From Alphaproteobacteria bacterium (lineage in GTDB: Bacteria; Pseudomonadota; Alphaproteobacteria; Sphingomonadales; Emcibacteraceae): 64,000 bases of DNA. The stretch lies in the NCBI GenBank assembly GCA_030428615.1, contig JAUIDN010000003.1:62001-126000 (forward strand), given 5' to 3'. Below, one piece after another: positions 3,331 to 56,054 of this stretch; position 1 is the first letter of the stretch, and every line of letters begins with the position of its first letter. The notes under the pieces were generated by a model, which was not told the DNA's origin, ran no database searches, and saw only the letters and a program-made list of their open reading frames with translations. The position numbers were made by a program, and so were the translations under genes.

Positions 3331-3360
3331 TAAGGGATAAAACATTTTCCTTCGTAATAC
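3331..3360 (+). promoter_or_regulatory. ECF-sigma-type promoter motif (site 5), porin-cytochrome operon
   Basis: The plus strand reads TAAGGGA, 14 bases, TCGTAATAC, starting right after the terminator. The 3361-3548 leader (about 185 bp) that follows holds no gene I can support. This site would drive the outer-membrane protein and two cytochromes that begin at 3549. Confidence 0.6.
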
Positions 3361-3548
3361 TGATGTAAGCAATATCAGAAACAATAAATCAATCATTGCC
3401 TTACAAAAATATCACCATCGGTATTTTCTAGAATATCGATGACAACAGGTCGCACAGGGTATTGCGAACTTAGTTTCTATCAGGTCGTTGTATTTGAAAT
3501 GAATATAAAAGTGCCGTACGGCAAAAAATAAATTGATAGGACAATATA

Positions 3549-4910: not shown

Positions 4911-4929
4911 CGCCTGAAAGGATAAGAAC

Positions 4930-5226
4930 ATGAAGACACTCAAAATTACACTCGCAACTGCCCTACTCACTTCACTATGCTTCAGCACAAATGTTAACGC
5001 GCAGGAAGCTGTCAAAAAAGATCCCATGCAAGTGGCTCGAGGGGCGAAGGCCTGGGCACAAACTTGTAACCGATGTCATAATATTAGAGCGCCTAAGGAG
5101 CTCACAGATGAGGAATGGGAAGTATCCACTACTCATATGCGTGTGAGGGCTAACCTTCCAGGAGACATGGTGAAAGACATCATTGCCTTTCTTCAAGCTA
5201 GTAACAACGAAAGAATTGAAAAATGA
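4930..5226 (+). CDS. Small periplasmic c-type cytochrome
   Basis: A 98-residue protein with a signal peptide (cleavage near NAQ, residue 24) and one haem-binding CNRCH motif near residue 47. A downstream His-Met pair at about 71-72 (STTHMRVR) could supply the sixth ligand. The ribosome site AAGGA sits upstream of the ATG. It lies 19 bp after the porin-like gene and 19 bp before a second cytochrome, so all three are probably one transcript. Redox partner unknown. Confidence 0.82.
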   Translation: MKTLKITLATALLTSLCFSTNVNAQEAVKKDPMQVARGAKAWAQTCNRCHNIRAPKELTDEEWEVSTTHMRVRANLPGDMVKDIIAFLQASNNERIEK

Positions 5227-5682: not shown

Positions 5683-8001
5683 TTAAATCTTCGTCATTCT
5701 GAGCCTTAGGGCATTGCTAACCACTGACAAAGACGACAGGCTCATTGCGGCCGCAGCGATAATTGGAGACAAGAGTATTCCAAAAACCGGATATAGCACA
5801 CCTGCAGCCACGGGAACGCCCATTGCGTTATAAACAAATGCGAGGAATAAGTTTTGTTTGATGTTTCTCATAGTCGCTTCTGAAAGACGACGCGCTCTTA
5901 CAATGCCTGTTAATTCACCTTGCATCAGGGTTATACCAGCACTTTCCATAGCAACGTCGGCCCCGGTGCCCATTGCAATGCCAACTTCCGCTACCGCCAA
6001 AGCTGGAGCATCGTTTACGCCATCACCTGCCATGGCAACTTTCGCCCCCAAGCTCTGAAGGTCCTTAATAATTTCTGCTTTACCTTCCGGCAAAATATCA
6101 GCACGAACTTCGTCAATATTAAGTTGCTGTGCAACGGCTGCGGCTGTGGTTTCATTGTCGCCTGTAACCATGATTATTCTCAGCCCTTCTTTATGAAGGG
6201 CATCAAGAGCTTGATTTGTTGTGTCCTTAATAGGGTCCTCGACAGCAACCAGTCCTGCTAGACTATTATTTATAGCAACATACATGACCGTTTTACCTTT
6301 TGTTCTCATGTGGTCAGCCTGAAGTTTCGCCCTTTCAATATCTATCCCTAAAGTAGCCATCATTGCGCTATTTCCCAGCGCCGTTAATTTACCGTCGATC
6401 TTTGCTTTCACTCCTTTACCCGTTACAGCCTCAAAATCATCAACCTTGATTAGATCAATATTTTTTGTTTTAGCACCGCTAATAATTGCCGCTGCCAAGG
6501 GATGTTCACTGCCTCTTTCCAAGCTAGCGGCGTTTGTTAATATTTTTAATTCGGAGAAATTGTTTATAGGGATAATATCGGTGAGCACGGGCTTACCGAG
6601 TGTCAACGTGCCTGTTTTATCAACAATTAGTGTGTCAACTTTTGCAAATACCTCTAGAGCCTCTGCATTTTTAATCAAAACACCTGACTGTGCGCCTCGC
6701 CCCATCGCGACCATAATAGACATTGGCGTTGCTAGCCCAACGGCACAAGGGCACGCTATAATTAAGACCGAAACGGCAGCAATTATTCCATGCGTCAAAG
6801 CTGGCTCCGGACCGAAATAATACCATACAGCGAAAGCGGCAATTGCAATAACAATCACAACTGGAACAAACCAACCAGCAATTAAGTCTGCATATTTCTG
6901 TATTGGAGCTCGGCTTCGCTGAGCATCGGCAACCATACTGACAATCTGGGAAAGCATTGTTTCCGATCCAACCCTCTCAGCGCGCATAACAAAGCTGCCA
7001 GTACCATTTAATGTCGCCCCAGTAATGCTATCACCTACTATTTTCTCTACTGGAACTGGTTCACCTGTAAGCAGAGATTCGTCTATTGTGGAGTGACCTT
7101 CTATAACAACTCCATCAACAGGCACCTTTTCGCCAGGCCTTACACGAAGTTTATCGGCACTTAGGATCTGATCAAGAGGGACTTCGTCTTCAGTTCCATC
7201 TTCATTTAGTCTAAGTGCAACTTTAGGCGCAAGATCGAGTAAAGCTCGGATGGCTCCTCCGGTCTTTTCTCGCGCTCTAAGTTCTAACACCTGACCAAGA
7301 AGTACGAGTACAATTATGACAGCAGCGGCTTCGAAATATACAGGAACCAGTCCACTTTCAGTTTTAATAGTTTCAGGGAATAAATCAGGAATGAAAAAGG
7401 CGATTAAACTATAGACATACGCAATTCCAGTACCAATGGCGATAAGGGTCCACATATTGAGGTTCATAGTTTGTATTGACTTCCAGCCCCTGACAAATAT
7501 AGGCGCTGCCGCCCAAAGCATAACTGGTGTTGTTAGGATGAGCTGTATAGTTAAAGATAACTCTTCTGCGACTATATTTTTGAATGCTGAGCTAAAGTGG
7601 CCGCCCATTTCCAAAATCAAGACGGGTAATGCCAGCACAAGCCCAATCCAGAAGCGTCGTGTAAAGTCGATCAATTCAGGATTAGGTCCTTCATCTGCAG
7701 ATGGGATACCCATAGGTTCCAATGCCATACCGCATATCGGACAATCGCCAAAATGATCTTGAATTATTTCGGGATGCATGGGACACGTGTACATCGTGCC
7801 TTCAGGCATTTCTTCTGGCTCGGGACGCTCACCCAAATATATTTCTGGATCTAATTTAAATTTATCGAGACATCGGGAGGAGCAAAAATAATAATCTTCG
7901 TCTGTGTATTTTAAATGATAGCTATCTTCGCTAACGTTAACCGTCATTCCACACACTGGATCATGAGTACTTGAGTGTGCATGCTTATGATCTTCGTTCA
8001 T
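5683..8001 (-). CDS. copA: Copper-exporting P1B-type ATPase with YHS and heavy-metal-binding heads
   Basis: A 772-residue ATPase that exports Cu(I) across the inner membrane. The N-terminus has a His-rich start, a YHS/TRASH-like Cys module ([20 protein letters not shown]; about residues 14-55) and a second module with CPMHPEI and [10 protein letters not shown] (about 72-95). The membrane core holds the CPC metal site ([13 protein letters not shown]). The phosphorylation loop DKTGTLT, the HP locus (SEHPLAAAI) and the [10 protein letters not shown] hinge are all present, so the pump looks active. An ECF-type promoter motif lies about 35 bp upstream of its start. Confidence 0.93.
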
Positions 8002-8035
8002 AATTTTTGCTCCCTTAAAGTTTTCTTATCAACGA

Positions 8036-8064
8036 TAATACGTTTGAAATAGACCTCTCCCTTA
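8036..8064 (-). promoter_or_regulatory. ECF-sigma-type promoter motif (site 6), copper ATPase
   Basis: The minus strand reads TAAGGGA, 14 bases, ACGTATTAT. The predicted leader to the ATPase start is about 25-30 nt. This is the closest motif-to-start spacing of the set. Confidence 0.62.
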
Positions 8065-8174
8065 TATTTCGAACCAGAAATTAGTCGGACAATGAGGTCT
8101 GCATCTAATGTGTATTATTGTACTTTTAAACGGGAGAAATGCTGTTACATAACTTTTTGAATGATTTACAAAAT

Positions 8175-8741
8175 TCAAATTTCGTCTATAGAATTTCGTA
8201 ACATGGTGTTTTTCATCTTTTTAAAATGGCTAGGACTGAGGCCAGTTACTGATTTAAATTGATTGCTCAGATGAGCGAGACTGCTATAGCCAAGTTGGAA
8301 TGATATCTCTGTTAAGCTTAATTCATCATACACAAGCAATTCTTTCACCCGCTCTATTTTCTGATTGATAAAGTATTTTTCAACTGTGATACCTTCAACC
8401 GACGAAAATAATGTACTGAGATAGCTGTACTCGTATGCAATATTTTTTGATAAGTGGTCTGACAATCGTAAATCCAGAAGACCGTCTTGTTTTTGAACCA
8501 GTTCGATTATGAGCTTCTTAATATTTTCTATTAATCTACCTTTTTTATCACCAATGAGTTCAAATCCAAATGCCTCTATTTTTTCTCTAAAAAATTTAAG
8601 TTCAACGTCCGATAACATCATTTTGCCAAAATCTACCTCCCCAAGTGACACACGAGCTACCGGGGCATTCAATTCTGCGAGTTCGCTTTTAATGACATGG
8701 ATACATCGATCACAAACCATATTTTTTATATACAGTTTCAT
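8175..8741 (-). CDS. AraC-type regulator with N-terminal Cys-x-x-Cys metal-binding-like domain
   Basis: A 188-residue regulator. Residues 1-70 begin MKLYIKNMVCDRCIHVIKSEL, which resembles the GMTCxxC start of heavy-metal-associated domains. Residues 90-180 form an AraC helix-turn-helix (LTEISFQLGYSSLAHLSNQFKSVTGLSPSHFKK). It lacks the usual AraC ligand-binding cupin, so a metal ion bound at the two Cys is the likely signal. It sits next to the copper ATPase on the same strand, but the ATPase has its own promoter motif, so its targets cannot be read from the sequence. Confidence 0.8.
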   Translation of the reverse strand: MKLYIKNMVCDRCIHVIKSELAELNAPVARVSLGEVDFGKMMLSDVELKFFREKIEAFGFELIGDKKGRLIENIKKLIIELVQKQDGLLDLRLSDHLSKNIAYEYSYLSTLFSSVEGITVEKYFINQKIERVKELLVYDELSLTEISFQLGYSSLAHLSNQFKSVTGLSPSHFKKMKNTMLRNSIDEI

Positions 8742-41382: not shown

Positions 41383-42003
41383 ATGACTTATTCCGATAAT
41401 TATACTGATACGATGAGTCTTTTTACTTATTCAGGCGAGCGCAAATATCTCACACCGGATGAAAGATCCAGATTTTATGGAGCCCTTTCCGTATTGGACT
41501 GTCCGAGGGAAAGGTTTTTCTGTGAGATGATATATTGGACGGGATGCAGACCAAGTGAAGCATTGGCATTGGATGTCATGACAATTGGGCTTGATGAACT
41601 GGTCGTTGTAATTCGTAGTCTCAAAAAACGAGGAAAGAATAAAAACCGGAAATTCAGGTTAGTACCTTTACCCGGCCCGTTTATAAAAGTGTTGAATAAT
41701 TTTTATCAGATACAAAAAGCTCAATGCCGAACTGATAATGGGCCCAAGGAGCGTTTATTTCCGTTTAGCCGCACTAAAGGTTGGCAACTTGTAGGCATGG
41801 TCATGAAATCAGCAAAAATTGTTGGGGCTATGGCATGTGCCAGGGGTCTACGTCATGCATTTGGCGTAAAAGCTGCTCTTAGCGGCGTACCCATAACGAT
41901 GATACAAAAATGGCTTGGTCATACAAATATATCAAGTACTCAAATTTACATTGATTTACTTGGGCCTGAAGAACGTCAAATTGCGCAGAAAATGTGGGCA
42001 TAA
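41383..42003 (+). CDS. Short tyrosine recombinase (catalytic domain only)
   Basis: 206 residues. All catalytic residues can be placed: Arg in TGCRPSEAL, Lys in LKKRGKN, HxxR-type RGLRHAFG, GH in WLGHTNISST, and Tyr in TQIYIDLL. The usual N-terminal core-binding domain is missing or reduced to about 25 residues, as in small plasmid resolvase-type recombinases. It may resolve multimers of the circular element at the repeats just upstream. Confidence 0.83.
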   Translation: MTYSDNYTDTMSLFTYSGERKYLTPDERSRFYGALSVLDCPRERFFCEMIYWTGCRPSEALALDVMTIGLDELVVVIRSLKKRGKNKNRKFRLVPLPGPFIKVLNNFYQIQKAQCRTDNGPKERLFPFSRTKGWQLVGMVMKSAKIVGAMACARGLRHAFGVKAALSGVPITMIQKWLGHTNISSTQIYIDLLGPEERQIAQKMWA

Positions 42004-42054: not shown

Positions 42055-43326
42055 TCATTGCAATCGCTTTGAACGTTCTTCTATAACTTTGATTATATCA
42101 TCAAATATTTCTGATGATATCCCTTCACCACCCAAGTCATTTTTTAACTGAACTGCTTTATCGTAAAGCTTATCAGTCATTGTATTTATTTGTTTGTGGA
42201 TAGCAGATTCCGCAGCTTTTGAGCCAGAAACAAGCTTATAGAAATGCCGAAGGTAAATTTCTTTTGGCTTATATTTTCCTCCGATTTTCATTGCCATTTT
42301 TTCTGACAAATCAGGATATACAGCCGTGCTTAATAAATCATATGCCGGTGCCAGATCAGGCTTGCCCATCCGATAAAGAAGAGAAAAGTTCTTTCCATGA
42401 GCATCCGCATTTCCAATGAGAAAATTGAAGATGATCATATCTAGTAATTTAATATAATCCACCGCAGGTCGGGCAACATGGTTGACAATAATTTCCTGAC
42501 ATTGAGAAACATTAGGGCCGCCTTCCCTCTCATATTTAATTTCTGGAGCGATGCCAAGAGCTTGACAAAAATCTTCCTGGTGAATACGAGAAATTGTTCC
42601 ATCCTCGTGTGTAATTCGGTCATATCTTTCGACTAAATAATAAGGCGTTTCATCTACATAATGTAAACTTGCATCTGGAACATCTAGGCTCATCCGTTTT
42701 GCAAGTTTCATACAAAATAACTCATTGTGCGCACTGTCTTTCACGCGATCAATAATGGGCTTTAAAATATGCGTTGTTGGCGCACCGCCTTTGATGAGTT
42801 GCACTTTTCCATTTTCAAAACCAACCGCCAACTTGTCTTGCGCGCCAGCTAGTGAAAGTCTGTAGCCATCATCACCAGCGAGCATTGGGCGACGTTTAAT
42901 AAGCTCTAAAATTTCTTTCAATTTTTTATCATCAAGAACTTCTGCTTCTCTTGATGTTTGCGCTGGCTTTTCTCCTTGAGGATAAAGAGCCAATGCTCCG
43001 GCACAATCACCCCCAACGGCTTCCAATAATGCGAAGGAGTTTTTATCAGATAAACCTAAATGAGCAGCTAGACGATCCCTTACACTTTCGTCAGGAAGTA
43101 AGCCGGAAAAGAAAGCCTTTACCTTTGCCCCTTTGTAAATACCTTTAACAAAATAATCTGAGACGACACTGGAAAATTTGGCATGTGGTGGTAAAGAAAT
43201 TGAAATGCCAAAAGCCGCATTTTCACGATATTCTTGATCATAGGAAAACGTCATATCCCCACTTTCGTCCTGACCAAGAATTCCGACGAAATCATCATTT
43301 AAATAAACGTCAAGTATACGGCTCAT
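42055..43326 (-). CDS. hipA: HipA-type kinase toxin
   Basis: 423 residues, full length. HipA phosphorylates a translation factor (glutamyl-tRNA synthetase in E. coli) and induces dormancy. Seen here: the N-terminal subdomain (YFVKGIYKGAKVKAFFSGLLPDE), SLAGAQDKLAV, THILKPI, the hinge YLVERYDR, the catalytic loop GNADAHGKNFSLLY and the Mg-binding APAYDLLS. All motifs look intact. Its start overlaps the hipB stop by 4 bp. Confidence 0.9.
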   Translation of the reverse strand: MSRILDVYLNDDFVGILGQDESGDMTFSYDQEYRENAAFGISISLPPHAKFSSVVSDYFVKGIYKGAKVKAFFSGLLPDESVRDRLAAHLGLSDKNSFALLEAVGGDCAGALALYPQGEKPAQTSREAEVLDDKKLKEILELIKRRPMLAGDDGYRLSLAGAQDKLAVGFENGKVQLIKGGAPTTHILKPIIDRVKDSAHNELFCMKLAKRMSLDVPDASLHYVDETPYYLVERYDRITHEDGTISRIHQEDFCQALGIAPEIKYEREGGPNVSQCQEIIVNHVARPAVDYIKLLDMIIFNFLIGNADAHGKNFSLLYRMGKPDLAPAYDLLSTAVYPDLSEKMAMKIGGKYKPKEIYLRHFYKLVSGSKAAESAIHKQINTMTDKLYDKAVQLKNDLGGEGISSEIFDDIIKVIEERSKRLQ

Positions 43327-43810: not shown

Positions 43811-45181
43811 TTATTCCTCGTCTATACGAATAAATCCAAAGTTAAACTCTTCAAAGTTTTTCTTCTGACTAACAACTGTACGGTTTTCAACACTGAGCAG
43901 ATTAACATCAATAAGCTCGTTCATAGACCCGCCATGAAGAAACCGCAAGACCTCGGAAATAGCCAAACAAGCTGTAACTGCACCAACAAAAGGTGCACCA
44001 ATTGCTTTTCCGGCCAATAACGTAATTCCGCATTGGTCAAGAACATTACTATCTAATAGCTTTTTATATGCTGGGCGACTAACGTTCGGTTTCTCTTGCC
44101 CATTGTGCTTCCAGATCTGCTGCGCCTTACGCAAACCAGGTAATGTGTGAAGCCGTAGACTTCGAAAGTCTTGGTAACCATTACCTAGCCCCGCCTCAAT
44201 AACCAAATCAAATCCCACTTGCTCAAGAGCGCGACGTGCCATTTTGTTGTCTACTCCACATAACGCTATGCCTGGCTCTTCTTTTCGACGCTTAAACCGG
44301 TCATCAAAAAGGCGTTCTATTATTGATGTTTTAAATCCTCGCGTTTCAGCCCATGCAGCCATCGCTCTCGTTTTCTTTTGCCCGATAATGCCCTCATCAG
44401 AAAGAATAGAAGTGCTCACCGTCGACGGCGTTATAACATCAGTGTCCTGAAGTACAAGCTGTAAAGTAGTGGGATCAGAGTAAGGCAGCAAACCAATCGC
44501 CCACAAATATGCTTGCCCCAGATGGCCAAGTCCAATCAACCACAAAGACGATGGCAGGAATTGCAGCTCAGGTTCTCCGCCGTCTTCCATCCATCTTTCC
44601 ACCTGTGAAGGATTCCAGAGTGACAAACCAACGGGCCGCAATCCTGCGACCGCAGAATCTTTTGAAACATATAAAAAAGCTTCGTTTATAGCGAGCGCTG
44701 CTGCTAACATTGGCGATAAGGCCATAACAGGCCTTTCATCCAATTCAAAATCGCTATGAGAAGGCACGATTCCACCGCGCCAACCAGAAAAAACGGTCCG
44801 AACACTGAAACGTTCATCCTTCGGAGTTTTTTCTCCACCGATAATCACAAGCGGAGCATCAGTAGCACCCTGACCTACACATCCACCCAGAGCGATTACA
44901 GCATCTCGTAAAGTCGTCCCTAAGGCGAATGGCACGAGAAGTGGTTCATCGAGCTCTCCATCAACATGGACGCCTCCCAAGAACACTCGTCGCCCTAAGG
45001 CTATAGTTGTTAATAAAGCGGCTTGTTTATTAGGATCGATTGCATCTTTACCTCGAATTAAAATCGACAGTGAATAGCTGTTAAAAATGGTCTCTGCTTC
45101 TTCTAAACTCTCAGCAACGCCGCTATCAAGCAATTGTTTAACAAGTCGATGAAGCGTGTCAGCTGGCGTATGAATACCCAT
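43811..45181 (-). CDS. E1-like (ThiF/UBA) activating enzyme of a ubiquitin-like system
   Basis: 456 residues. The C-terminal half is the adenylating domain: Rossmann glycines in LWLIGLGHLGQAYL, the acidic ATP-site segment LVLQDTDVITPSTV, then GVDNKMARRAL and VIEAGLGNGYQDF. A Cys in DQCGITLLAGKAIG is a candidate for the thioester step. The first 210 residues are an unrecognised domain. It would adenylate the C-terminus of the small Ubl encoded three genes upstream and hand it to the E2. No cyclic-nucleotide synthase lies nearby, so this is not a type II CBASS. Confidence 0.78.
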   Translation of the reverse strand: MGIHTPADTLHRLVKQLLDSGVAESLEEAETIFNSYSLSILIRGKDAIDPNKQAALLTTIALGRRVFLGGVHVDGELDEPLLVPFALGTTLRDAVIALGGCVGQGATDAPLVIIGGEKTPKDERFSVRTVFSGWRGGIVPSHSDFELDERPVMALSPMLAAALAINEAFLYVSKDSAVAGLRPVGLSLWNPSQVERWMEDGGEPELQFLPSSLWLIGLGHLGQAYLWAIGLLPYSDPTTLQLVLQDTDVITPSTVSTSILSDEGIIGQKKTRAMAAWAETRGFKTSIIERLFDDRFKRRKEEPGIALCGVDNKMARRALEQVGFDLVIEAGLGNGYQDFRSLRLHTLPGLRKAQQIWKHNGQEKPNVSRPAYKKLLDSNVLDQCGITLLAGKAIGAPFVGAVTACLAISEVLRFLHGGSMNELIDVNLLSVENRTVVSQKKNFEEFNFGFIRIDEE

Positions 45182-45190
45182 GATTCCTCC

Positions 45191-45712
45191 TTACAAAAAT
45201 TCTTTTTTTATGAAATGTTGGCGCTGCCCATGCGGAATGGTTTCCCATTGCTTGCCACCCAAATACCTATAAATGCCAATTTCGCCTCTGCGAATTGGTA
45301 ATCGAGCAAAATAAGGTAAAATCAGCGCCAAATGCCCTGACCGCGAGATCATTGGGTGTTGACGGTCTGAAGTGCTCTGTAGCGAACTGCCAGGATGCAC
45401 ATGGACATCCGCGACAACACTTAGTTTTTTTCTTCGGCATAGATCCCATAGATCGCCAAAATATCGCCCGTCGAAACGCACTATACCGCTATCTAAACTA
45501 TGAGGGTCTAGATCATCATACAGGACAAAATCAACGATCTTAGCCTGTCCGTTAGGATCACGATGACCTAACAAGAAAGCTCCACTTTCACGCGTTTTAG
45601 ACAGTCCTCGAGATCGCAGCCCTATTAATAGACGCAACCACGTAAACCACGATATTGATAGTTCATGCTGCCGCAATTGGCGGCGCTTGATAATCTTGGC
45701 AATTGAGAAGTT
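45191..45712 (-). CDS. JAB/JAMM deubiquitinase-like metalloprotease
   Basis: About 173 residues if started at ATG 45712. The frame is open to 45793 and a TTG at 45673 is also possible, so the start is unsure. The JAMM motif is complete: Glu in RESGAFLLG, then [13 protein letters not shown] (HxHP, later Ser and Asp). It would trim or remove the Ubl from its targets. It lies 9 bp before the E1 gene and overlaps the end of the E2 gene. Confidence 0.8.
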
Positions 45713-46136
45713 CATATACCAGCTCCAAATATTGAATAATTCCATCGGCAGGACGCCATATTTTCGAAGGCATTTCGTGGTTCCAGTTGTCATGCCCTTC
45801 TACGCTTATCCGATCACATGGGATATAAAGAGCTGTGCCACCCTTCCAATCAGGTCGAAAAACAGATCCAACACGCCCACCCTTACTTTTGGGCCATTGA
45901 TTGGGATGTAAAATCGCGTTCTGAGTTTTATCCCATGGGCCAGCGGTCGGCGGACTGCTTGGATAGCCGCTACAATTAAACCGTAAAAGGTACTCGAGAT
46001 CGTCCTTCGCTGTTACACTGATAAAAACCATGGGCCAGTCAGTGTCAACCAAACGCCAACGCCGTTCGATTTGCCCCAGCTTAAAAGCCGGTTTTTTCAC
46101 GTCAGCGAGTAAAGCCCGCTCATCAGGCGCCTTCAT
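45663..46136 (-). CDS. E2-like ubiquitin-conjugating fold protein
   Basis: 157 residues. The UBC-like pattern includes the [31 protein letters not shown] strand-and-Pro segment and a candidate catalytic Cys in [18 protein letters not shown], followed by two helices. It would accept Ubl from the E1 and pass it to a target. It starts 11 bp after the Ubl stop. Assignment rests on pattern and neighbours more than on strong identity. Confidence 0.72.
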
Positions 46137-46147
46137 TGTTTCCTCCC

Positions 46148-46639
46148 TTAGCCGTTGATACGTTCGTCAGGAACCAAATCAAAAGCGATCTTGCATTTCT
46201 TACATTCAATCAATGCACCGATATGAATGTTTGGAGCAGGCCGCTCGTGAGTGCCCGCAATTTGCAAAACGTGCTCGCTGGCTTCTTCTTCGGTCATGTC
46301 GAATTTCTTTTCAGCAGCCCATTTTTTAAGACGGGCGATGGTTGCGCTGGGAGGAAAAGCCGCTTCTACAGTCTCCCCGTTAAAAGTAATGGTCACGCCA
46401 ATGCGGCGGCATCTATGGACATGTGCCTTAATTCCAGCAGGATTTGACTTGGCGCAAATTTTGTCTGCTTCATTAACCGGATCCTCGCCGTCCTCCAGAA
46501 AGAGCAGTAGCGCACCCTTTAGCTTGTGTTTTGCCGCAATCAACTCTTTCAGAGTCGAAAAGGTTGAACCATGCTCTATTTCAATATGTTCAATGGATGT
46601 AACGCCATCGCATTGATAAAAAATGTCAACATTCTGCAT
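46148..46639 (-). CDS. Ubiquitin-like protein, probably two beta-grasp domains
   Basis: 163 residues that appear to hold two beta-grasp units. The first (about 1-75) has [18 protein letters not shown] and the second (about 78-150) has [33 protein letters not shown]. The C-terminus has a CKKC pair and ends in Asn-Gly rather than Gly-Gly. A two-domain Ubl is the arrangement of the ISG15-like Bil antiphage systems. It is first in the Ubl-E2-JAB-E1 run. TTGGAGAATTG precedes the ATG. Confidence 0.7.
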
Positions 46640-46686
46640 TTTTCAATTCTCCAAGAGATCAGGTGAGCTAGCGGAATTGCTGTCAT
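46576..46686 (-). CDS. Possible short leader ORF overlapping the Ubl start
   Basis: A strong AAGGAGACAATG start at 46686 opens a 36-codon frame that runs into the Ubl gene in another frame, ending at 46576. It may couple translation of the Ubl or be chance. The better ribosome site here than at the Ubl itself is the only unusual point. Confidence 0.28.
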   Translation of the reverse strand: MTAIPLAHLISWRIEKCRMLTFFINAMALHPLNILK

Positions 46687-46739
46687 TGTCTCCTTACTTA
46701 GCTAATAGAAAAATAGCAGCGTAACCGGAAAGAAATTGA

Positions 46740-49700
46740 CTATTTTTTTTCAGGAAGGGCTAAAGAACCGTCGGGCGTTGCCGCACAAATAAAGAAATGC
46801 GGACAACGTGGACATGTCACTGAGTTCGGTTTTGGAGGAAAAGCACCACTTGAAAGCTCAGTGATAGCTTTTCCAACCTTTTCTTGACGACTGTTTATTT
46901 GCCTGTCTGTAAGTGCCACTTGCTCATTTATTTGATCGGCAAGATGTAGAGCCTCAACTATAGCCTGACCGGCAAAATTCTGATCAGCAGCAATAAGATA
47001 AAGCGCATATTCAAGTGCATCTTCATACTCTTTACTCCTTTTGCGGCCCGTTCTAACGTGCCTTATAACTATAGATCCATCCGGAAGCTCTGCTATTTCA
47101 CTAGGTTTTACCGTAACCAACCCGGCAGGTAGGTTTACATCCAACGGTTCAGGTTTTCTAAAACTGCGATTACTTCCTGACTCGACCAAAGCCTTTACAA
47201 GATTTAGAGCAATATCATGATATTCTCTCTCAAAGGCATGATCGACTGGCCCTTTCTGTTTCCAAATTTCATCAAATGCTGTGTCCACTTCCGTGAGTCC
47301 TGGCGGATCAGACAATCTCTTTTCAGAAAGCCAATCTATAAAGCTATACATACAGCTATGCGTTTTGGTAAAAGCGGTTTGTTGACGAGAACTTTGTAGG
47401 CCCATCACATGTGTATAGAAGAACCTGCGAGGACATTTTTGATATGAGGTTATATATTCCTGTTTTAAAGACCAGTTGGCTGGCCATTTAACTTCTACAA
47501 ATAATGACTGCACATCATCATCTGGTAATTTTAGACACGCAGCATTTTCAATTTCATTAACTTTTTTTTCCGATAATTCAGCCAAAAATGGGGAAGGTTT
47601 TTTACTTCGTGCATTAGGTGAATGGTAAATGCGTAGATGAGTCTTTGACCGTGACAAAGCCACAAAGAACAAACACTCTTCTTCTTCCGCATGAGAACGA
47701 ACCGTTTCTTCAGAAACACTCAAGCTTTCAACACTGGAAATCATTCCTTCTGGCGGCTTGCAACGCTGACCTTGCCTAGAAGATGGGATATTTGTAACTG
47801 TAAGGCCTGGTATATGAACAGCCTCAAACTCGAGCCCTTTACTTCCATGTATAGTCATCAAACGAACAGCATTCATATGCAAGGCGGCCGCTGGAACTTG
47901 GCGCAAATCACGCTCTTCCGCAAAAAGAACTAATTGCCTGACTCTATCAAGAGTGCGTCTTATTGGTAGCCCCTTATGTACAGGACTCTGATCTCTAACA
48001 AAATTCAAGAATTGCCAAACTGCTACGGCTCTCATCCTGTCTGGTATAGATTTTGCCGCAGCCATATTTCGACAATAATCACTTCTATCAAGTACGTACT
48101 CTGCCAGAAAATTCCATGCGGTGCTATTTACGGACATTTGAGAAAAATCTTCTGCAAGAAGAGAGAACCCCTTTCTTCCTTCTGCTGAAAATTTTTGATT
48201 TTGAACGAGGGTTTTAAGCACCTTTATTGTTGGTTCTTCTGAATCTTGCAGCGCATCAATCGCGCTAAATACATCTTGCAATGGGATCTTATATCGTGGC
48301 ATCTTTGCCATTCGGATCAGCCCTGACCCAAACGGCTCGACGGCCAATGACAAGACTGCCAGTAAATCGCGTATATCACCTCTTTCAAATAAACTGCCTA
48401 AATGCAGTACCGGAATTCCTCGCCTCTCAAGTTCAGAAGCCATCTCATTCAATCTTGCATTTTTTCGGCACAGAACAACCTGATCTTTAAGCTGCACTCC
48501 AGAAGCTTCTAACTCACGTATGCTAGAGGCAACCCCTCCCGCCTCTTCTTCTAATGAATTAAACTTACGAATTTCTGGAAGAGCTTCCCCCTTTCCTCGA
48601 GAAGCATCTATATTTAATGATAACATTTCAGCAGATGCTTTCATCTGCGATGCGAAACTTACAAAAGTGTCCACCACCTCTTTCGTTGAACGATAATTAA
48701 TTTCGAGCTGTTCAACTTTTGCATCCTTAAAGTCGTCCGAAAAGCATACCATATTAATAGAAGATGCACCCCGGAAACGATATATTGATTGACGCGCATC
48801 GCCAACAACCCATAATCGCTGGCCATCTCCAGCAATTGCCTTCAACAAACGAACGCTAGCTCTGTTAACATCCTGGTACTCATCAACCAATATGTGCCTA
48901 TGCCTTAACTGTACGGTTTGCTTGAGGGCCATATTCTCTTCTAACAATAATGCCGGTAACATAATGAGATCACCGAAATCTACTGCGCCGTGCTTATTCT
49001 TTACTCTTTCGTAATGCTCATAAATGCAAGCAACTTCCAGGCACTTTTCAGCTTCTTTGATTTCCTCATCACTAGTCGCCTTATCAAGCATATCCTGCGC
49101 GAGTGCTTTATATCCCTCAACTCCGACCAATTCATCTTTCGCCCTAGAAATTGCATTAAGAATATTTCTCAGCTCTATGGCAGGATCCCATAAATTTTTG
49201 TAATGCTTTAAAGGTAATGTGGGCAAAATATCTTCAAGAACTTCTATTGCATCACTTCGATCAAATAGCGATGGATCAGCGGGTAAGTTAAGTTGGTCGT
49301 AGAAACGCCTAATTAAATCAAGGCCAAACGCATGAAAAGTTCCCATCCATACATTTGCAGCATCTTGACCATGTTTTAGGGAAAGCCTTTCCGATAACTC
49401 TCCTGCAGCTCTATTGGAAAAGGTCAAAACTAATATAGATTGAGGCTGTATGCCCTCATCAATGAGTGAAGTAATTCTTTTTATAAGTGTTCGTGTTTTT
49501 CCTGTACCGGGCCCGGCTTGCAGCTGAAAAGGCGCATTACGATGTTCCGCAGCTCTATCTTGTGTGTCATCTGGCTTGAGCACAAAATTTGCGGGCTCTT
49601 CTTCATCATCTACTTCAGGAATCTCTGGCAATAAAATAGCGTCTAATACTTGCTGCCGTACAAGGTTGATCGGAAGCTCTGTTCTTTTTACAATTTCTGA

Positions 49701-50171
49701 CGCAGTCCTTCCATCTTCAAGATAGATCTTCTTTGCAAGAATGCGCGGAAACAGAAATTCACGAGCAAATACATTGGCCTGCAGCTCTCGCCTTTCACGG
49801 GCACCATAATCATCAACTTTTTGAAGTCCTATAGGTGCGCTTTCTATAGATTGAGAGGGGTTGATATCAGCTTCAGAACATCTTGCAGACCCAATATGAA
49901 CTTGCTCATGACCGATCTCGTGAGCAACAAGTATGGCCTTATCTGAATTACTTCCCAAATCTTCACAAAAAATCACACCAGTTTGTTCATCAAATAAAGC
50001 ACGAGCCCCTTTCAATGCTGGGTCGCCTTTTGGAAGCCAGGACAGTTCCAATTCTAAGTGTTCAATAGCGGCCTGCACTAAAGAAAGAGGTTGTAAGGGA
50101 TTCACCCCTTTGGCAACCAATTCTTCATGGAGTTTGAGTGCAGCTATGCGTATTGCTTCGAAGGAATCCAT
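46740..50171 (-). CDS. ImmA-peptidase / UvrD-type helicase / Cas4-like C-terminus fusion
   Basis: 1143 residues in three parts. Residues about 10-170 are an ImmA/IrrE zinc peptidase (VAHEIGHEQVHIG and ERRELQANVFAREFLFP). Residues about 200-800 are an SF1A helicase: Walker A QAGPGTGKTRTL, Walker B HILVDEYQDVNR, GDARQSIYRFRG, RLMTIHGSKGLEFE, FVALSRSKTHLRI. The C-terminus is Cas4/AddB-like, with CPRRFFYTHVMG and an iron-sulfur-type CPRCPHFFIC. The expected nuclease motif (Asp-x-Lys-Thr-Gly) reads RHVRTGR, so cutting activity may be lost. The preceding HTH gene is a likely ImmA target. Confidence 0.85.
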   Translation of the reverse strand: MDSFEAIRIAALKLHEELVAKGVNPLQPLSLVQAAIEHLELELSWLPKGDPALKGARALFDEQTGVIFCEDLGSNSDKAILVAHEIGHEQVHIGSARCSEADINPSQSIESAPIGLQKVDDYGARERRELQANVFAREFLFPRILAKKIYLEDGRTASEIVKRTELPINLVRQQVLDAILLPEIPEVDDEEEPANFVLKPDDTQDRAAEHRNAPFQLQAGPGTGKTRTLIKRITSLIDEGIQPQSILVLTFSNRAAGELSERLSLKHGQDAANVWMGTFHAFGLDLIRRFYDQLNLPADPSLFDRSDAIEVLEDILPTLPLKHYKNLWDPAIELRNILNAISRAKDELVGVEGYKALAQDMLDKATSDEEIKEAEKCLEVACIYEHYERVKNKHGAVDFGDLIMLPALLLEENMALKQTVQLRHRHILVDEYQDVNRASVRLLKAIAGDGQRLWVVGDARQSIYRFRGASSINMVCFSDDFKDAKVEQLEINYRSTKEVVDTFVSFASQMKASAEMLSLNIDASRGKGEALPEIRKFNSLEEEAGGVASSIRELEASGVQLKDQVVLCRKNARLNEMASELERRGIPVLHLGSLFERGDIRDLLAVLSLAVEPFGSGLIRMAKMPRYKIPLQDVFSAIDALQDSEEPTIKVLKTLVQNQKFSAEGRKGFSLLAEDFSQMSVNSTAWNFLAEYVLDRSDYCRNMAAAKSIPDRMRAVAVWQFLNFVRDQSPVHKGLPIRRTLDRVRQLVLFAEERDLRQVPAAALHMNAVRLMTIHGSKGLEFEAVHIPGLTVTNIPSSRQGQRCKPPEGMISSVESLSVSEETVRSHAEEEECLFFVALSRSKTHLRIYHSPNARSKKPSPFLAELSEKKVNEIENAACLKLPDDDVQSLFVEVKWPANWSLKQEYITSYQKCPRRFFYTHVMGLQSSRQQTAFTKTHSCMYSFIDWLSEKRLSDPPGLTEVDTAFDEIWKQKGPVDHAFEREYHDIALNLVKALVESGSNRSFRKPEPLDVNLPAGLVTVKPSEIAELPDGSIVIRHVRTGRKRSKEYEDALEYALYLIAADQNFAGQAIVEALHLADQINEQVALTDRQINSRQEKVGKAITELSSGAFPPKPNSVTCPRCPHFFICAATPDGSLALPEKK

Positions 50172-50180
50172 TCGTCTCTC

Positions 50181-50831
50181 TTAAATCTGCAATATGTGAC
50201 TTTGTTGCTCTTCAGTTAAGCCGGAGTTTTTTAACGCATACTCAAACGTGCATTGCTCCTGTACCTTAGGTTTGTTTTCTGATTTGTAAAATTGCGATGA
50301 AGCCAAAACAGGTGGTGCCTGTAAATGTTTCAATACAACTTCGTATGGTCTATTTAACTTTTGGGAAATGTCCTTAATAAAACTAGAGGGAATAGTTTCT
50401 GGATTTATTAGACGATCCCGCAACCTCGTCACAAAGGTCGCGTTTGCATTAATTTCTTGAGAGAGACCTCTAAAACTTTTCCTATCTAAGTTTGTAAAAG
50501 GGTTTTCTGCTGATTTTTCTTCAATTTTTTCTACAGAATTCGAATTTGCATCTTTTTCCTGTTTCAATTCAAATATGCGGTTTTGATAGTAACTCATAGC
50601 TTTAGAAACAGCAGGACTCACTCCTTCCTCAATCTCAACATCTAAATCTTCACTTTCTTCTTCTCGGAAGAAATCAAGTACAATTTCTACCGCAAAATCG
50701 ACCAGCTCATTCGCAAACTGTGGGTATCTGCATATAACATCATCAAGAGTTTTCGCATCGGGAATCTCCTTAGCGACAGTTAAAGTATATAGTGCTTCTT
50801 GAAGTCGTGGTTGTGGGGTGCTTTGGGTCAT
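50181..50831 (-). CDS. HTH (Xre-like) protein, probable partner of the ImmA peptidase
   Basis: 216 residues. An acidic N-terminal half (FFREEESEDLDVEIEEG) is followed by an Xre-like helix-turn-helix at about 115-170 (SFRGLSQEINANATFVTRL, then IPSSFIKDISQKLNRPYEVVLKHL). It begins 2 bp after the sigma stop and ends 9 bp before the helicase fusion. Such repressors are cut by ImmA peptidases in integrative elements, so it may hold the operon silent until triggered. It could instead act as an anti-sigma factor. Confidence 0.6.
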   Translation of the reverse strand: MTQSTPQPRLQEALYTLTVAKEIPDAKTLDDVICRYPQFANELVDFAVEIVLDFFREEESEDLDVEIEEGVSPAVSKAMSYYQNRIFELKQEKDANSNSVEKIEEKSAENPFTNLDRKSFRGLSQEINANATFVTRLRDRLINPETIPSSFIKDISQKLNRPYEVVLKHLQAPPVLASSQFYKSENKPKVQEQCTFEYALKNSGLTEEQQSHILQI

Positions 50832-50833
50832 GG

Positions 50834-51616
50834 TTACAGCTCCTTATGTAAGTGCATGAGTTTTTCTTTTGCTTTTGCCAAACGATTCCGGATTGTTTTA
50901 CCAGTAACTTCACAAATAGAAGCAGCGGTACGTTCCTTTGGGTCTATCGACTCAATTTTATATCCTAAGACGTGGCATAGAATAAGTGCCCGCTGTTCGT
51001 CTGGCGGCATATCTTGTATGACTTTCCTAACCTGACTGAGGAAAACACGGTCTTCCTGGTTTGCCAAATCAGTAAGTTTCGAAAAGAGTATGTCTGCATC
51101 TTTATTTGAACTTTGGTCTGTGCTCAGATCAGGTAGGGTTTCTATTTTCGATGTGCCTCCGCGCTTTTGGGCGCTATGCTTTCTTACGGCCATTATACGT
51201 ATTGAGCGAAAGGCACGATTAAATTTACACTCATAATAATCTAGTTCTTCTATGTTCTCCCCAATCGAATCTTTAGCAAACAGGTCACACAATTTGAAAA
51301 GAATTTCTTCTCTTACGTCTTTTGCGTTAGGCAAACTTTCAAGTACAGCCGATTTAAGATTTCTCTCACAGCGGCTAAGTAAAACAGGAAAAAGAACATT
51401 TACCGTTCTAGTATCATTTTCCCTATTCGCTTTGCGTATAAGGTGAACAATACACTCAGAGGGCAAAAAAGCAGCAGATTTTTTATCTAATACAGCGGCG
51501 CGCTCTTTAATTTGTGCCAGACTTTGTTTGGTGGCGTTCTGGATCGCTTGTTCAACCTTTTGCGGTCGAACATATAACTCTCCCTCGCTGTTTCTATTTG
51601 TAAGTGCTTTTACCAT
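50834..51616 (-). CDS. Divergent ECF-like sigma factor
   Basis: 260 residues. A region-2-like part lies at about 60-150 (LFPVLLSRCERNLKSAVLESL, LDYYECKFNRAFRSIRIMAVRK). Region 4 is at about 195-258, with MPPDEQRALILCHVLGYK and an HTH TAASICEVTGKTIRNRLAKAKEKL. The N-terminus has an extra 50 residues. GAGGT precedes the ATG. It heads the leftward cluster 51616-43811 and may direct its own operon. Confidence 0.72.
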   Translation of the reverse strand: MVKALTNRNSEGELYVRPQKVEQAIQNATKQSLAQIKERAAVLDKKSAAFLPSECIVHLIRKANRENDTRTVNVLFPVLLSRCERNLKSAVLESLPNAKDVREEILFKLCDLFAKDSIGENIEELDYYECKFNRAFRSIRIMAVRKHSAQKRGGTSKIETLPDLSTDQSSNKDADILFSKLTDLANQEDRVFLSQVRKVIQDMPPDEQRALILCHVLGYKIESIDPKERTAASICEVTGKTIRNRLAKAKEKLMHLHKEL

Positions 51617-52051
51617 ATTTTACCTCTTGTTCCGGCCCGTCAATTTATTTATGCGCACGCTGAAAATGCCGTTTCATGAAGTTAATTGCATTCACGCTTA
51701 CAACCCGGAAACAAAAATTACAAAATTTTATAGTACGCAAATTTATGCAGGATAATTCCTTTAATAAATTCATCTGCTCCGTCAGAAGGAGTTGGACAGC
51801 TTATCTCGCCTGTGGTCGAGAATGGATATCGTTTCCCCCAATAGAACCCAACACGCAATATTAAATAATCAATTCACATAACTTATCAAGAATTTAGTGA
51901 AAAAGAATTTTGCCTTCTGCTAAAAATAGCGATTTCGAATTTCGATTGCCTATTAACTTCGTGGATCGGTAAATTCAACTGAAAAGGCTGATATTCATTG
52001 CTTGAGTTTCTTAAGCGAAAAGAGGTTATGAGATTAAAGTAAAAATATATT
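51617..52051. other. Intergenic region upstream of the sigma-headed cluster
   Basis: No gene that I can support: short frames at 51528-51755 and 51676-51864 lack ribosome sites and recognisable content. The 3' part holds the promoter side of the element end. Presumed to contain the cluster's promoter. Confidence 0.4.
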
Positions 52052-52196: not shown

Positions 52197-52240
52197 TGGC
52201 GCGAGTGACGAGACTTGAACTCGCGGCCTCCGCCGTGACA
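52197..52240 (-). pseudogene. 3' fragment of a class II tRNA (probably tRNA-Ser), attachment-site core
   Basis: Reading leftwards, the sequence holds a variable-arm stem (GGC/GCC), T-stem and loop GCGAG-TTCAAGT-CTCGT, acceptor strand CACTCGC, discriminator G and CCA. The long variable arm marks class II and discriminator G favours Ser. No 5' half (D arm, anticodon) is present to the right; integrase sequence follows instead. This is the duplicated 3' end left by an element inserted in a tRNA gene. Confidence 0.7.
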
Positions 52241-52304: not shown

Positions 52305-53504
52305 TTATTGAGATTCCTTCATTCGAGTTAGAGATCCACCGCGACCACTCGCCGCAACATCATCAAAGTCCATTAAATGAGTGTATAAGTTTAAAGTGGT
52401 CTCAATTTTGGAATGTCCCATCAAATATTGTGCACGTTTTAAATTCGCGGGATTATTCTCATAACTTTTAAGTAGTAACGAAGCATAATAGTGCCTCAAA
52501 CTATATGGTGTGAATTTATTCTTAGGAACCGTCTCACCATCTACTTCAACAAGCTTTACAAGCCCGGCTTCAAGGCACGCTACGTTAAAACCTCTTTTTC
52601 TCCAGTGATCCACACATTGCCAATGGCCAGTAGAAGTTGGAAAGACCAGATCATGACGATTGTCAATTGAATGACGTCTTATATAGTTCTGCACCATTTC
52701 ATATACTTCTGGACTAAGATCTATAAATCTCCTCCCAGCTTTTGTTTTAGTTACCGATATCCGTGTTCCAGGTCTTTCAATAGCCCTTGTCACATGTACA
52801 CCCCCATCCACAAAAGCAGCCTTGGCTACAGCAACGTATTCTTGCGGTCTCATGCCGCTATCGGCGGCGAGATATAGCATCGGTCTGTATCTCGCCCATG
52901 AGTTCGCAATTCTTTTATTGGAACTTTCGGCTAGCCGGTCTGCTGCGGATAGCAAAGCAAAAACGTCATCTTGCGATGGAACAGACACTGGTTGATCGTA
53001 ACGGGAATCAGTTCTCACCGTAATATTAGTGACAATATTTGCCGCAATAATATCTCGGATACATAGCTCTTGAAATATGCCGAACAGAGCCGTCATTGTA
53101 ACACCTGCGCGGTATCGGCTCACTCCACTTTTTAATAACCATGATCTAAATTCTACAATGTGAGAAGCTTTTAATTCCTGGATTGGCTGATGCCAATGGT
53201 ATGAGTTAATTACCTTCGCTCTGCGGGTATATTCAGAGAGTGTGTAGGGGGTGACAGGGTCTTTTCCATCCCTGCCCTCTTTTTCACAAATATTAAGCCA
53301 TAAATCTGTTGCTTGAGATATTGTAGTTACAGATGTGTTAAATTTTGAAGGGGATTTATTGATTTCGCCACTTTCGACAAAAGCCTTGGCTGCTTTTCTC
53401 GTTGAAAAACTCTTATAGCTATAACCGCTTGCTTTTGATTTATCCAAATACCTAACTTGGTACTTAACACCTTTTGCATTTTCACGTTTTGAAATATCTG
53501 CCAT
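52305..53504 (-). CDS. int: Tyrosine integrase (phage/ICE type)
   Basis: 399 residues. The N-terminal arm-binding region (1-60) is followed by a core-binding SAM-like domain (about 75-170) and the catalytic domain with Arg in DSGMRPQEYVAV, SLRHYYASLLL, MGHSKIETTLNLYTHL carrying the HxxR, His and Tyr nucleophile. Its 3' end is 60 bp from the tRNA fragment, the usual place for an integrase that uses that site. Downstream of an excisionase-like gene. Confidence 0.9.
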   Translation of the reverse strand: MADISKRENAKGVKYQVRYLDKSKASGYSYKSFSTRKAAKAFVESGEINKSPSKFNTSVTTISQATDLWLNICEKEGRDGKDPVTPYTLSEYTRRAKVINSYHWHQPIQELKASHIVEFRSWLLKSGVSRYRAGVTMTALFGIFQELCIRDIIAANIVTNITVRTDSRYDQPVSVPSQDDVFALLSAADRLAESSNKRIANSWARYRPMLYLAADSGMRPQEYVAVAKAAFVDGGVHVTRAIERPGTRISVTKTKAGRRFIDLSPEVYEMVQNYIRRHSIDNRHDLVFPTSTGHWQCVDHWRKRGFNVACLEAGLVKLVEVDGETVPKNKFTPYSLRHYYASLLLKSYENNPANLKRAQYLMGHSKIETTLNLYTHLMDFDDVAASGRGGSLTRMKESQ

Positions 53505-54410: not shown

Positions 54411-56054
54411 CTAGCCCGCACAGCAAGAAAGTTGAGACACATCTTTTCCAAAGGTTTGTGCACAAAGCTTTAAGCCTTCTACCATCGTTAAATATGGGAA
54501 GAGTTGATCTGCTATGTCATCAACGGTCATTTCATTGCGAATTGCCAATGCAGCGCTCTGAATAATTTCTCCACCTTCATGGGCGAGAATTTGTGCACCT
54601 AAAATCCTTTTTGTATCGGCATCAATAACCAATTTAATAAATCCGTCAGTTTCAAAATTAGCCAATGCTCTGGGCACATTTTCCATGTCCAAAACACGGC
54701 TATCTGTATTGATACCTCGTTGTTTGGCTTGTGCCTCAGTTAATCCGACAGTCGCTACTTGAGGGTCAGTAAATATCACGGCTGGCATAGTGGATAAATC
54801 AAGTTTCGCATCCCCGCCTGTCATGTTTATTCCCGCACGACTACCTGCGGCAGCTGCAACATAAACGAATTGCGGCATGTTACTGCAATCACCAACAGCG
54901 TAGATATTTTCAACATTCGTTTCCATACGTTCGTTGACCAAAATTTCACCGTTGCGACTGGTCGATACTCCTGCAGCTTCTAAGTGAAGCCCACCTGTAT
55001 TGGCATGGCGACCTGTGCTGATCAACAGCTGATTACTTTGCAGAGAGCCGCTATTTGTCTCTAAGCTAAATTCCTTACCATCGTGTGATACATTTGAAGC
55101 TTGGGTATTATTCAGTACTGTCACACCTTCATTTTCCAATGATGTGGTGAGTGCTTCTCCTAATTGAGGGTCTTCGCTGTAAAGTAAGGTATGACGGGCA
55201 AGTATCGTTACCTTTGAACCCAGACGATTATATGCTTGGGCTATTTCCAATGCGACGACGGAAGAACCAATGACAACGAGACGATCAGGCGTTTCATTAG
55301 CGAACAAAGCTTCTGTAGATGACCAGAAAGGAGTGCCAAGTAAGCCGTTAATTGGTGGTGTAGATGGCGTAGAGCCTGTCGCTATCAAAATTCTATCTGC
55401 TCTTATTTCCTGTTCACTTCCATCAGGTTTAGCAACAATAAGCGTATTAGCATTTTTAAATCGAGCATATCCCCGTACCAGGCTTAGAGCAGAATTTGAT
55501 TCCAGAATATTTTGATATTTTGCTGCACGCAATTCCTCTACACGAGCTGTTTGCTGTTGAGTTAATATAGCGCGATTTAAAACAGGAGAATGATTTTCCA
55601 ACCCGTCAAACGGATTATTACGCTGTTGTTGAGCAAGCTGTGCCGCTCTAATCAGTATTTTTGACGGGACACAACCGACGTTAACACAGCAACCGCCTAT
55701 AACTTCTGCACCTTCAATTATGGTAACGCGAGCACCACCATCTGCCGCCTTAATAGCGCAGGCAAAAGCACCTGAACCACTGCCAATAATTACAACGTGC
55801 AACTGTTCATCATTTTGTGCGGCAATTTTTTTACTCTCTTTAGAACGCAAGGAACCATCTTTCGCGGAGTATCCAATAGAGGTTATGGTATCAATAATCA
55901 TATTGGTTGAGATGCCAGAAATTGCATCCACTTCAGCACTAGAGGTCGAAAACTGGACTTCAGCCGAGTTGACGCCCACAATTGCTTCCAATGTGTCTTT
56001 GATGTGAGCCGCGCATTTGTCACAGCTCATGCCTTCGATAGATAATGATATCAT
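54411..56054 (-). CDS. merA: Mercuric reductase MerA with N-terminal HMA domain
   Basis: 547 residues. It reduces Hg(II) to volatile Hg(0) with NADPH. Residues 1-68 are the NmerA metal-binding domain (GMSCDKCAAHI). The FAD site VIIGSGSGAFACAIKA is followed by the redox pair GGCCVNVGCVPSK. The NAD site lies near VVIGSSVVALEIAQ and the C-terminal Cys pair is in SCCAG at the very end. All catalytic Cys are present. It is the third gene of a merT-merP-merA run. Confidence 0.95.
   Translation of the reverse strand: MISLSIEGMSCDKCAAHIKDTLEAIVGVNSAEVQFSTSSAEVDAISGISTNMIIDTITSIGYSAKDGSLRSKESKKIAAQNDEQLHVVIIGSGSGAFACAIKAADGGARVTIIEGAEVIGGCCVNVGCVPSKILIRAAQLAQQQRNNPFDGLENHSPVLNRAILTQQQTARVEELRAAKYQNILESNSALSLVRGYARFKNANTLIVAKPDGSEQEIRADRILIATGSTPSTPPINGLLGTPFWSSTEALFANETPDRLVVIGSSVVALEIAQAYNRLGSKVTILARHTLLYSEDPQLGEALTTSLENEGVTVLNNTQASNVSHDGKEFSLETNSGSLQSNQLLISTGRHANTGGLHLEAAGVSTSRNGEILVNERMETNVENIYAVGDCSNMPQFVYVAAAAGSRAGINMTGGDAKLDLSTMPAVIFTDPQVATVGLTEAQAKQRGINTDSRVLDMENVPRALANFETDGFIKLVIDADTKRILGAQILAHEGGEIIQSAALAIRNEMTVDDIADQLFPYLTMVEGLKLCAQTFGKDVSQLSCCAG

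Follow-up and report, generated by a model that had tools for sequence, protein, structure and literature searches.

Within a 64,000-nucleotide stretch of an Emcibacteraceae genome (Alphaproteobacteria; contig JAUIDN010000003.1, positions 62,001 to 126,000; hereafter the window), seven genes on the minus strand appear to form one regulated defence unit, in which a sigma factor, a helix-turn-helix (HTH) protein and a protease-helicase fusion (the trio) would switch on a BilABCD ubiquitin-like conjugation operon. We consider this reading probable. That the seven genes are a single unit with shared regulation is well supported by comparative sequence evidence, which establishes the parts, their linkage, shared promoter-like sites, intact active sites and long-term coevolution; we infer restraint of the sigma factor by the HTH protein, a DNA trigger, proteolytic cleavage and Bil as the antiphage output. 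If the reading is true, Bil in this branch would naturally be a unit of seven genes, not four. It would add a conserved gene set that four-gene descriptions of Bil omit, and would offer a concrete, testable answer to how Bil and related ubiquitin-like systems are activated, made of defined genes and two defined promoter-like sites.

The seven open reading frames (ORFs) all lie within 43811-51616 of the window. In order of transcription they encode the sigma factor, the HTH protein, the M78-UvrD-PDDEXK fusion, BilA, BilB, BilC and BilD, and two promoter-like sites accompany them:

50834-51616, minus strand: extracytoplasmic function (ECF)-type sigma factor, 260 amino acids (aa), opening the unit; Sigma70_r4_2, E 1.4e-6, and fold
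50181-50831, minus strand: HTH protein, 216 aa; model with a predicted local distance difference test (pLDDT) score of 87, weak Cro/XRE-like HTH
46740-50171, minus strand: M78 (ImmA/IrrE) peptidase, superfamily 1A (SF1A) UvrD-type helicase and PDDEXK-like domain, 1143 aa; Pfam
46148-46639, minus strand: BilA, two-domain ubiquitin-like (Ubl) protein, 163 aa, C-terminal Gly; PADLOC BilA, 9.9e-55
45663-46136, minus strand: BilB, E2-like, 157 aa; PADLOC BilB, 8.3e-60; DUF7665
45191-45715, minus strand: BilC, JAB/JAMM peptidase, 174 aa when counted from the preferred start; PADLOC BilC, 1.2e-61
43811-45181, minus strand: BilD, E1-like, 456 aa; PADLOC BilD, 3.3e-168
51683-51711, minus strand: promoter-like site 1, TTTCCG-N17-CAATTA, 5' of the sigma gene
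46703-46731, minus strand: promoter-like site 2, TTTCCG-N17-CTATTA, in the 100-bp gap 5' of BilA

A sequence-only reading of the window had proposed this seven-gene cluster on one strand; the ORFs were confirmed and their identities upheld by Pfam and PADLOC. Pfam found M78, UvrD and PDDEXK in one protein, and its ThiF, Prok-JAB and ubiquitin matches all fell below the Pfam cut-off. Only 2 nt separate the sigma and HTH genes and 9 nt the HTH and protease-helicase genes, with a gap of 100 nt between the latter and BilA. BilC most likely starts at 45715 rather than 45793, judging from its N-terminus read by eye.

On this evidence the leftmost four genes are a canonical BilABCD ubiquitin-like conjugation operon, with a two-domain Ubl, an E2, a JAMM peptidase and an E1 in A-B-C-D order. 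The sequence-only reading had held that the order differs from A-B-C-D; PADLOC names BilA, BilB, BilC and BilD in the canonical order, and the argument from gene order was therefore wrong. It had also noted the lack of a cyclic-nucleotide synthase as a departure from Bil. The absence is real, but it is expected, because such a synthase belongs to the cyclic-oligonucleotide-based antiphage signalling system (CBASS), not to Bil. Type II CBASS has a CD-NTase together with the E1-E2 fusion Cap2. Neither was found among the 10 locus proteins scanned, in which E1 and E2 are separate genes, and a CBASS reading was rejected.

The E2 cysteine, the JAMM HxH, Ser and Asp and the E1 cysteine are all in place. 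BilB Cys107 occurs in 78/79 and His115 in 79/79 aligned sequences; the BilC HxH, Ser and Asp, and BilD Cys384, Asp246, Lys270 and Arg272, occur in 83/83, and Cys384 is presumably catalytic because it is invariant. The C-x5-E-x-H-x4-H spacing of BilB agrees with the CEHH motif given in PMC11354881, though Glu113 (32/79) and His120 (20/79) are not conserved. BilD had no solved-structure relative at E 0.001. Compared with BilABCD, which is given as a four-gene operon in PMC11354881, the window unit is alike in the four PADLOC models, gene order and catalytic residues, and is unlike it in having three conserved upstream genes.

Conserved linkage and paired promoter-like sites

Genome contigs were scanned with a BilD alignment, the best 80 of 200 relatives were kept and neighbouring ORFs were searched with hidden Markov models (HMMs). 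The resulting linkage rate holds for this BilD branch, not for all Bil, because the 80 loci are the best matches to the window BilD. The protease-helicase gene stands directly before BilA in 73/77 testable loci; left out were L050 and L092, on contigs without BilA, and L084, with BilA at the edge. The HTH gene, which sits between the sigma and protease-helicase genes, was detected in 68 of the 71 loci with enough upstream DNA, and all three genes were present in 67 of these 71 (short upstream DNA removed L050, L055, L068, L075, L084, L086, L089, L092 and L093). The sequence-only reading had asked for the same order elsewhere, and the recurrence of the seven-gene arrangement in 67/71 testable loci is far beyond what chance would give. 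These 67 loci belong to Pseudomonadota (49), Chloroflexota (6), Planctomycetota (5), Acidobacteriota (4) and Myxococcota (1), with 2 unassigned. The two halves thus co-occur across phyla, which excludes the possibility, raised with the original proposal, that they never do so in other genomes. Pairwise distances of the protease-helicase (ImmA-UvrD) protein track those of BilD (r = 0.957, n = 67 loci; 0/2000 permutations as high), a value judged against permutations only, with no unrelated gene pair as control.

The full trio is missing at four loci: L057 and L067 have none of the three genes, L094 has the sigma and HTH genes but no helicase gene, and L122 has a helicase remnant. The L094 locus (3281-5064), where Bil is accompanied by sigma and HTH genes and the protease-helicase gene is absent, is a natural deletion. 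At L122 (Collimonas sp. OK412, about 7013-8434), all that remains of the protease-helicase before BilA is its C-terminal 473 aa, and an HMM search found no trio sigma or HTH gene upstream. Collimonas sp. OK412 is the source strain of the ISG15-like system tested in the tail-fibre work (PMC11364771); since its locus has no intact trio copy, results obtained with the OK412 operon may differ from its behaviour under natural control. The trio is also absent from L034 and L035, two Bil loci that are more distant. All trio-less Bil loci with scanned neighbours (L034, L035, L057 and L067) have an M78 peptidase and an HTH protein nearby, as a pair or a fusion, and M78-HTH control may be common to Bil.

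Linkage was also seen in a sample of 385 genomes of the same class, where the three best BilD matches, the window's included, all have a helicase gene before BilA; the helicase proteins of the other two loci are 36% identical to the window's. BilD matches at E up to 0.001 were found in 84/385 genomes, 7 of them (own included) below 1e-37. Genome G323 has a BilD match at E 1.1e-16 with a weak BilC match beside it, and the remaining weaker matches were taken as generic ThiF/MoeB, judged from scores. In genomes G326 and G074, the stretches L036-L038 were compared with the seven window proteins, and G282 gave a weak HTH-protein match.

The same two-part site, TTTCCG-N17-CNATTA in the window, occurs twice in the unit: 5' of the sigma gene, and between the helicase gene and BilA. 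These sites look like sigma -35/-10 pairs, and we propose that the seven genes form two transcription units. We surveyed 162 regions, drawn from 67 Bil-type loci (the window's among them) and from 14 additional loci (12 multiubiquitin loci, L164 and L165). The best site scored 11-12 of 12 in 74 regions, against 0.2% of shuffled regions. For covariation, 58 loci with both sites at a score of at least 9 were dereplicated at 70% helicase identity to 29. Similarity of the two sites within a locus averaged 11.62 of 13, against 9.57 between loci (0/20,000 permutations), and was higher than that to the nearest relative in 17 loci, equal in 7 and lower in 5. Some loci changed at both sites together, as in L058 (GTTCCG...GAATTA), L110 (CTTCCG...CGCTCC) and L078 (TTGCCG...CGGTTT). 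Within the 3.39 Mb genome the joint pattern is matched exactly at two places, both at this unit, a count that speaks for rarity and not for independence because the pattern was built from those two sites; six further matches have one mismatch, and the reversed-pattern control gave none in the same genome. In 11 of the 14 further loci a site of the form TTACCG-N17-CGATT(A/G) lies 3' of the helicase gene. The 67/71 linkage, the correlation of distances and the covarying sites rule out that the halves are unrelated neighbours, and the proposal of one regulated system is well supported.

Proteins of the trio

The model of the sigma factor (pLDDT 90) contains the region 2 and region 4 folds of an ECF sigma factor. 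Region 2 matches 4lup (Z 8.5, 2.6 A, 92 residues) and region 4 matches 2h27 (Z 9.9, 1.7 A, 67 residues), both of them E. coli sigma-E, and nearly all of the 50 fold matches listed are sigma factors; Z values of 8-10 are modest for helical folds, and the best Foldseek E was 0.0076. Family and structure searches gave the HTH protein no convincing family match or solved relative. Weak fold matches, DdrO among them, point to a Cro/XRE-like HTH at residues about 109-173, and the N-terminal helical part of the whole-protein model has weak homeodomain-like fold matches only. Its gene occupies the position expected of a paired anti-sigma gene; no anti-sigma fold was among the fold matches listed, which does not exclude one. 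We propose that the HTH protein is an anti-sigma factor or a repressor, and the substrate of the M78 peptidase.

In one alternative, the HTH protein would act as a conventional DNA-binding repressor beside a constitutive sigma factor, so that the protease would relieve repression without any sigma/anti-sigma step. The weak Cro/XRE-like fold is in accordance with this, as is the fact that CapH and DdrO are repressors. However, the HTH gene in the window follows a dedicated sigma gene at a distance of only 2 nt, and the paired sites, which resemble sigma -35/-10 elements, vary in concert from locus to locus. We regard this alternative as possible but rather doubtful.

In the protease-helicase, the M78 residues H84, E85, H88 and E129 are invariant in 68/68 aligned sequences, and so are the Walker A K225, the DE-x-QD box and the cysteines C913, C1120, C1123 and C1129. 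The nuclease-motif Asp and Lys positions are Arg in 59/68 and 58/68, respectively. Sequence search for a solved M78 relative returned repeat-protein chance matches only. The C-terminal domain has mycobacterial AdnB as its best solved match, a weak one (E 0.0056), in which VVVDLKTG aligns with VVRRVRTG of the profile. The protein has in common with AdnB/AddB the SF1A helicase, the PDDEXK-like domain and four conserved Cys; it differs in its N-terminal protease and in its catalytic Asp and Lys positions, which are mostly Arg, and the intact catalytic Asp and Lys of the AdnB/AddB nuclease are not found in it. The motif Asp of AdnB is required for nuclease activity, and a four-Cys cluster of this kind binds an iron-sulfur cluster. 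We read the fusion as an enzyme whose protease and helicase are putatively active and whose nuclease is dead and retained for DNA binding. The sequence-only reading had likened the upstream half to a damage- or protease-triggered switch, which would fit the conserved M78 active site and the helicase.

The trio before other ubiquitin-like systems

Among 398 genomes of a phylum sample, a full-length helicase protein was present in 6 (bits above 1190; next best 362). One is the window, and in the other five the trio stands before a multiubiquitin gene. Three of these five have more divergent partners, with Multi_ubiq, E2 and JAB-ThiF domains in L154 (Pfam) and JAB-E1-like proteins, read from translations, in L157 and L158. 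The usual partner set is Multi_ubiq, DUF6791-ThiF and DUF6527 (Pfam, L160), and L165 has the trio with a divergent Bil set. Multiubiquitin operons share the trio with the window Bil operon and differ in Ubl, E1 and peptidase.

A plasmid search with the helicase protein gave 93 records, 84 of them matching over at least 80% of the query. Of the 40 non-Acinetobacter plasmid matches listed, 12 have the helicase gene next to a Bil operon and 25 have it next to an operon of multiubiquitin type, partners being assigned by annotation, HMM or coordinates. The sigma and HTH genes were sought in the loci examined; elsewhere, adjacency was taken from the coordinates of helicase, BilD and multiubiquitin-E1 matches. 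The three exceptions are L164, where an IS66 element follows, L260, with only a 109-aa BilA-like remnant, and L261, which is degraded and has helicase pieces. L164 and L260 keep the trio without an intact Ubl operon alongside. Acinetobacter plasmids make up 45 records, in the helicase search as in the multiubiquitin-E1 search, and the copies checked individually are L161 and L162.

These counts bear on the idea that the trio is an antiphage system of its own, a helicase-protease effector with its own sigma factor, co-travelling with Ubl operons in defence islands. Defence systems often include UvrD-type helicases (PADLOC gave GajB-like matches), and a few copies stand without an intact Ubl operon (the trio in L164 and L260, helicase pieces in L261). 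However, 37/40 listed non-Acinetobacter plasmid copies adjoin a Ubl operon, and the three exceptions are a degraded copy, one followed by a BilA-like remnant and one followed by an IS66 element. The fixed order and spacing, the covarying paired sites and the distance correlation likewise speak against independence, which we consider very unlikely.

A tree of 61 helicase proteins needs 4 changes between Bil and multiubiquitin labels, compared with a mean of about 12.7 for shuffled labels, and 4 is the minimum that the well-supported branches permit. The tree is a quick one with support from the Shimodaira-Hasegawa-like approximate likelihood ratio test (SH-aLRT) only, L164 was left unlabelled, L260 was labelled Bil from its remnant, and one of the 4 changes is unsure because L263 sits on a very long branch. 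Taken together, these comparisons show the trio as an apparent control module, mobile among ubiquitin-like systems of different kinds.

The protease-helicase might instead belong to the effector arm, for example as a substrate or partner of Bil conjugation, with the sigma factor and HTH protein alone acting as regulators. Its gene is the one nearest to BilA, and L094 retains the sigma and HTH genes without it beside an intact Bil operon. However, the same helicase protein serves different sets, namely Multi_ubiq/DUF6791-ThiF/DUF6527 and Multi_ubiq-E2/JAB-ThiF, and such sharing would be expected from a regulator rather more than from a substrate dedicated to one pathway. The CapH+CapP and PprI-DdrO cases are, moreover, examples in which an M78 protein beside an HTH gene acts as a regulator. 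A place in the effector arm is, in our judgement, distinctly unlikely.

Several further loci were observed. On a Rhizobium beringeri plasmid (L262, 4057-14560), two divergent Ubl operons flank the trio. One contains a JAB peptidase and the other DUF6527, and each has a promoter-like site; one switch perhaps serves two systems there. A gene annotated as DNA repair exonuclease follows the Ubl operon in L165, L259 and L262, with an AAA ATPase gene next in L165 and L259, and the exonuclease may be an added effector. Among 5426 E. coli genomes, 3 match the Klebsiella helicase copy, 1 of them with most of it. An IMG/VR contig (L179) ends inside a protease-helicase gene preceded by a trio-type HTH gene, with no sigma or Ubl match on it. 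Apart from L179, the 80 listed viral-contig matches to the helicase alignment were dismissed as generic UvrD, judged from the table alone.

The proposed switch, known controllers and flanking genes

We propose the following route. The HTH protein would hold the sigma factor inactive, or repress both promoters. The AdnB-like helicase with its four-Cys domain would engage single-stranded DNA (ssDNA) or DNA ends arising from phage attack or damage, and this engagement would activate the M78 protease to which it is fused. The protease would then cut the HTH protein in the manner of CapP acting on CapH and PprI/IrrE on DdrO. Freed sigma factor could then read site 1, in positive feedback on its own operon, and site 2 before BilABCD, whereupon Bil would attach its ubiquitin-like protein to target proteins. 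The route is drawn by analogy with ssDNA-activated cleavage of HTH regulators: CapP, a protease activated by ssDNA, cuts CapH (PMC13373217), and PprI cleaves DdrO upon ssDNA activation (PMC10904395). The wider proposal, in which a DNA-sensing protease-helicase and cleavage of its partner make up a self-amplifying sigma switch plugged repeatedly into different Ubl conjugation systems, has in our view about an even chance of being right.

Several observations weigh against the proposal of one sigma-controlled unit. The linkage rate describes one BilD branch, and its count of 73 takes in the L122 remnant and contig-start fragments (L055, L075, L086 and L089), while copies split over two ORFs (L063, L076, L081 and L099) enter both the 73 and the 67. 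Comparison of sites with the nearest relative goes the opposite way in 5/29 loci, several Bil loci (e.g. L117, L118 and L121) are without a confident site pair, and the genome pattern derives from sites 1 and 2 themselves. A recognisable site before the sigma gene was found in only 1/14 further loci (their gene starts being ORF guesses), and this low count means that self-induction is perhaps not general. The fold match of the HTH protein is weak (Z at most 6.5), and 9/68 protease-helicases keep Lys at the second nuclease position.

The controllers closest to the trio are CapH+CapP and PprI/IrrE-DdrO, with which it has in common an M78 peptidase and an HTH regulator. CapH and CapP adjoin an immune operon that they control (PMC13373217). 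The trio likewise places an M78 domain with an intact active site beside an HTH gene, but it is not a two-gene pair with a stand-alone peptidase and no sigma factor: its peptidase forms one protein with a helicase and a PDDEXK-like domain, an ECF-type sigma factor joins the set, and the operon is apparently read from a paired alternative promoter. CapK+CapS and CapW are described as swappable controllers of immune operons including Bil and Bub, and of 544 Bub operons 219 have CapW or CapH+CapP and 59 have CapK+CapS (PMC13373217). In contrast to these, no kinase, STAS or WYL domain was found in the trio by Pfam.

Multiubiquitin operons, which we infer to be the Bub class, are the fifth operon type (row 6e) of a 2006 survey by Iyer (PMC1779556), the main text of which does not contain the terms sigma factor, UvrD or helicase. 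A three-gene sigma-protease controller for Bil or multiubiquitin operons was not found in the literature searched, and an earlier mention in the main Bil and Bub papers is possible. Provisionally, we regard the Bil core as already known and the sigma-based controller of an immune operon as the new part. If the self-amplifying switch is real, it would be, to our knowledge, the first controller of bacterial immune operons to be based on a sigma factor.

Tyrosine-recombinase-like genes lie on both flanks of the unit (41383-42003, plus strand, and an integrase gene at 52305-53504, minus strand). The sequence-only reading had placed an attachment site beside the cluster. A fragment resembling a tRNA 3' end does adjoin the integrase gene, at 52197-52224; it is unproven as an attachment site because it occurs in a single copy in the 3.39 Mb genome, even when as many as 3 mismatches are tolerated, and ARAGORN found no tRNA gene in the window. 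A HipA-like kinase gene lies just downstream of the Bil operon (42055-43326, minus strand), and at 54411-56054 on the minus strand the window encodes a mercuric-reductase-like protein with a heavy-metal-associated (HMA) domain and a pyridine nucleotide-disulphide oxidoreductase domain.

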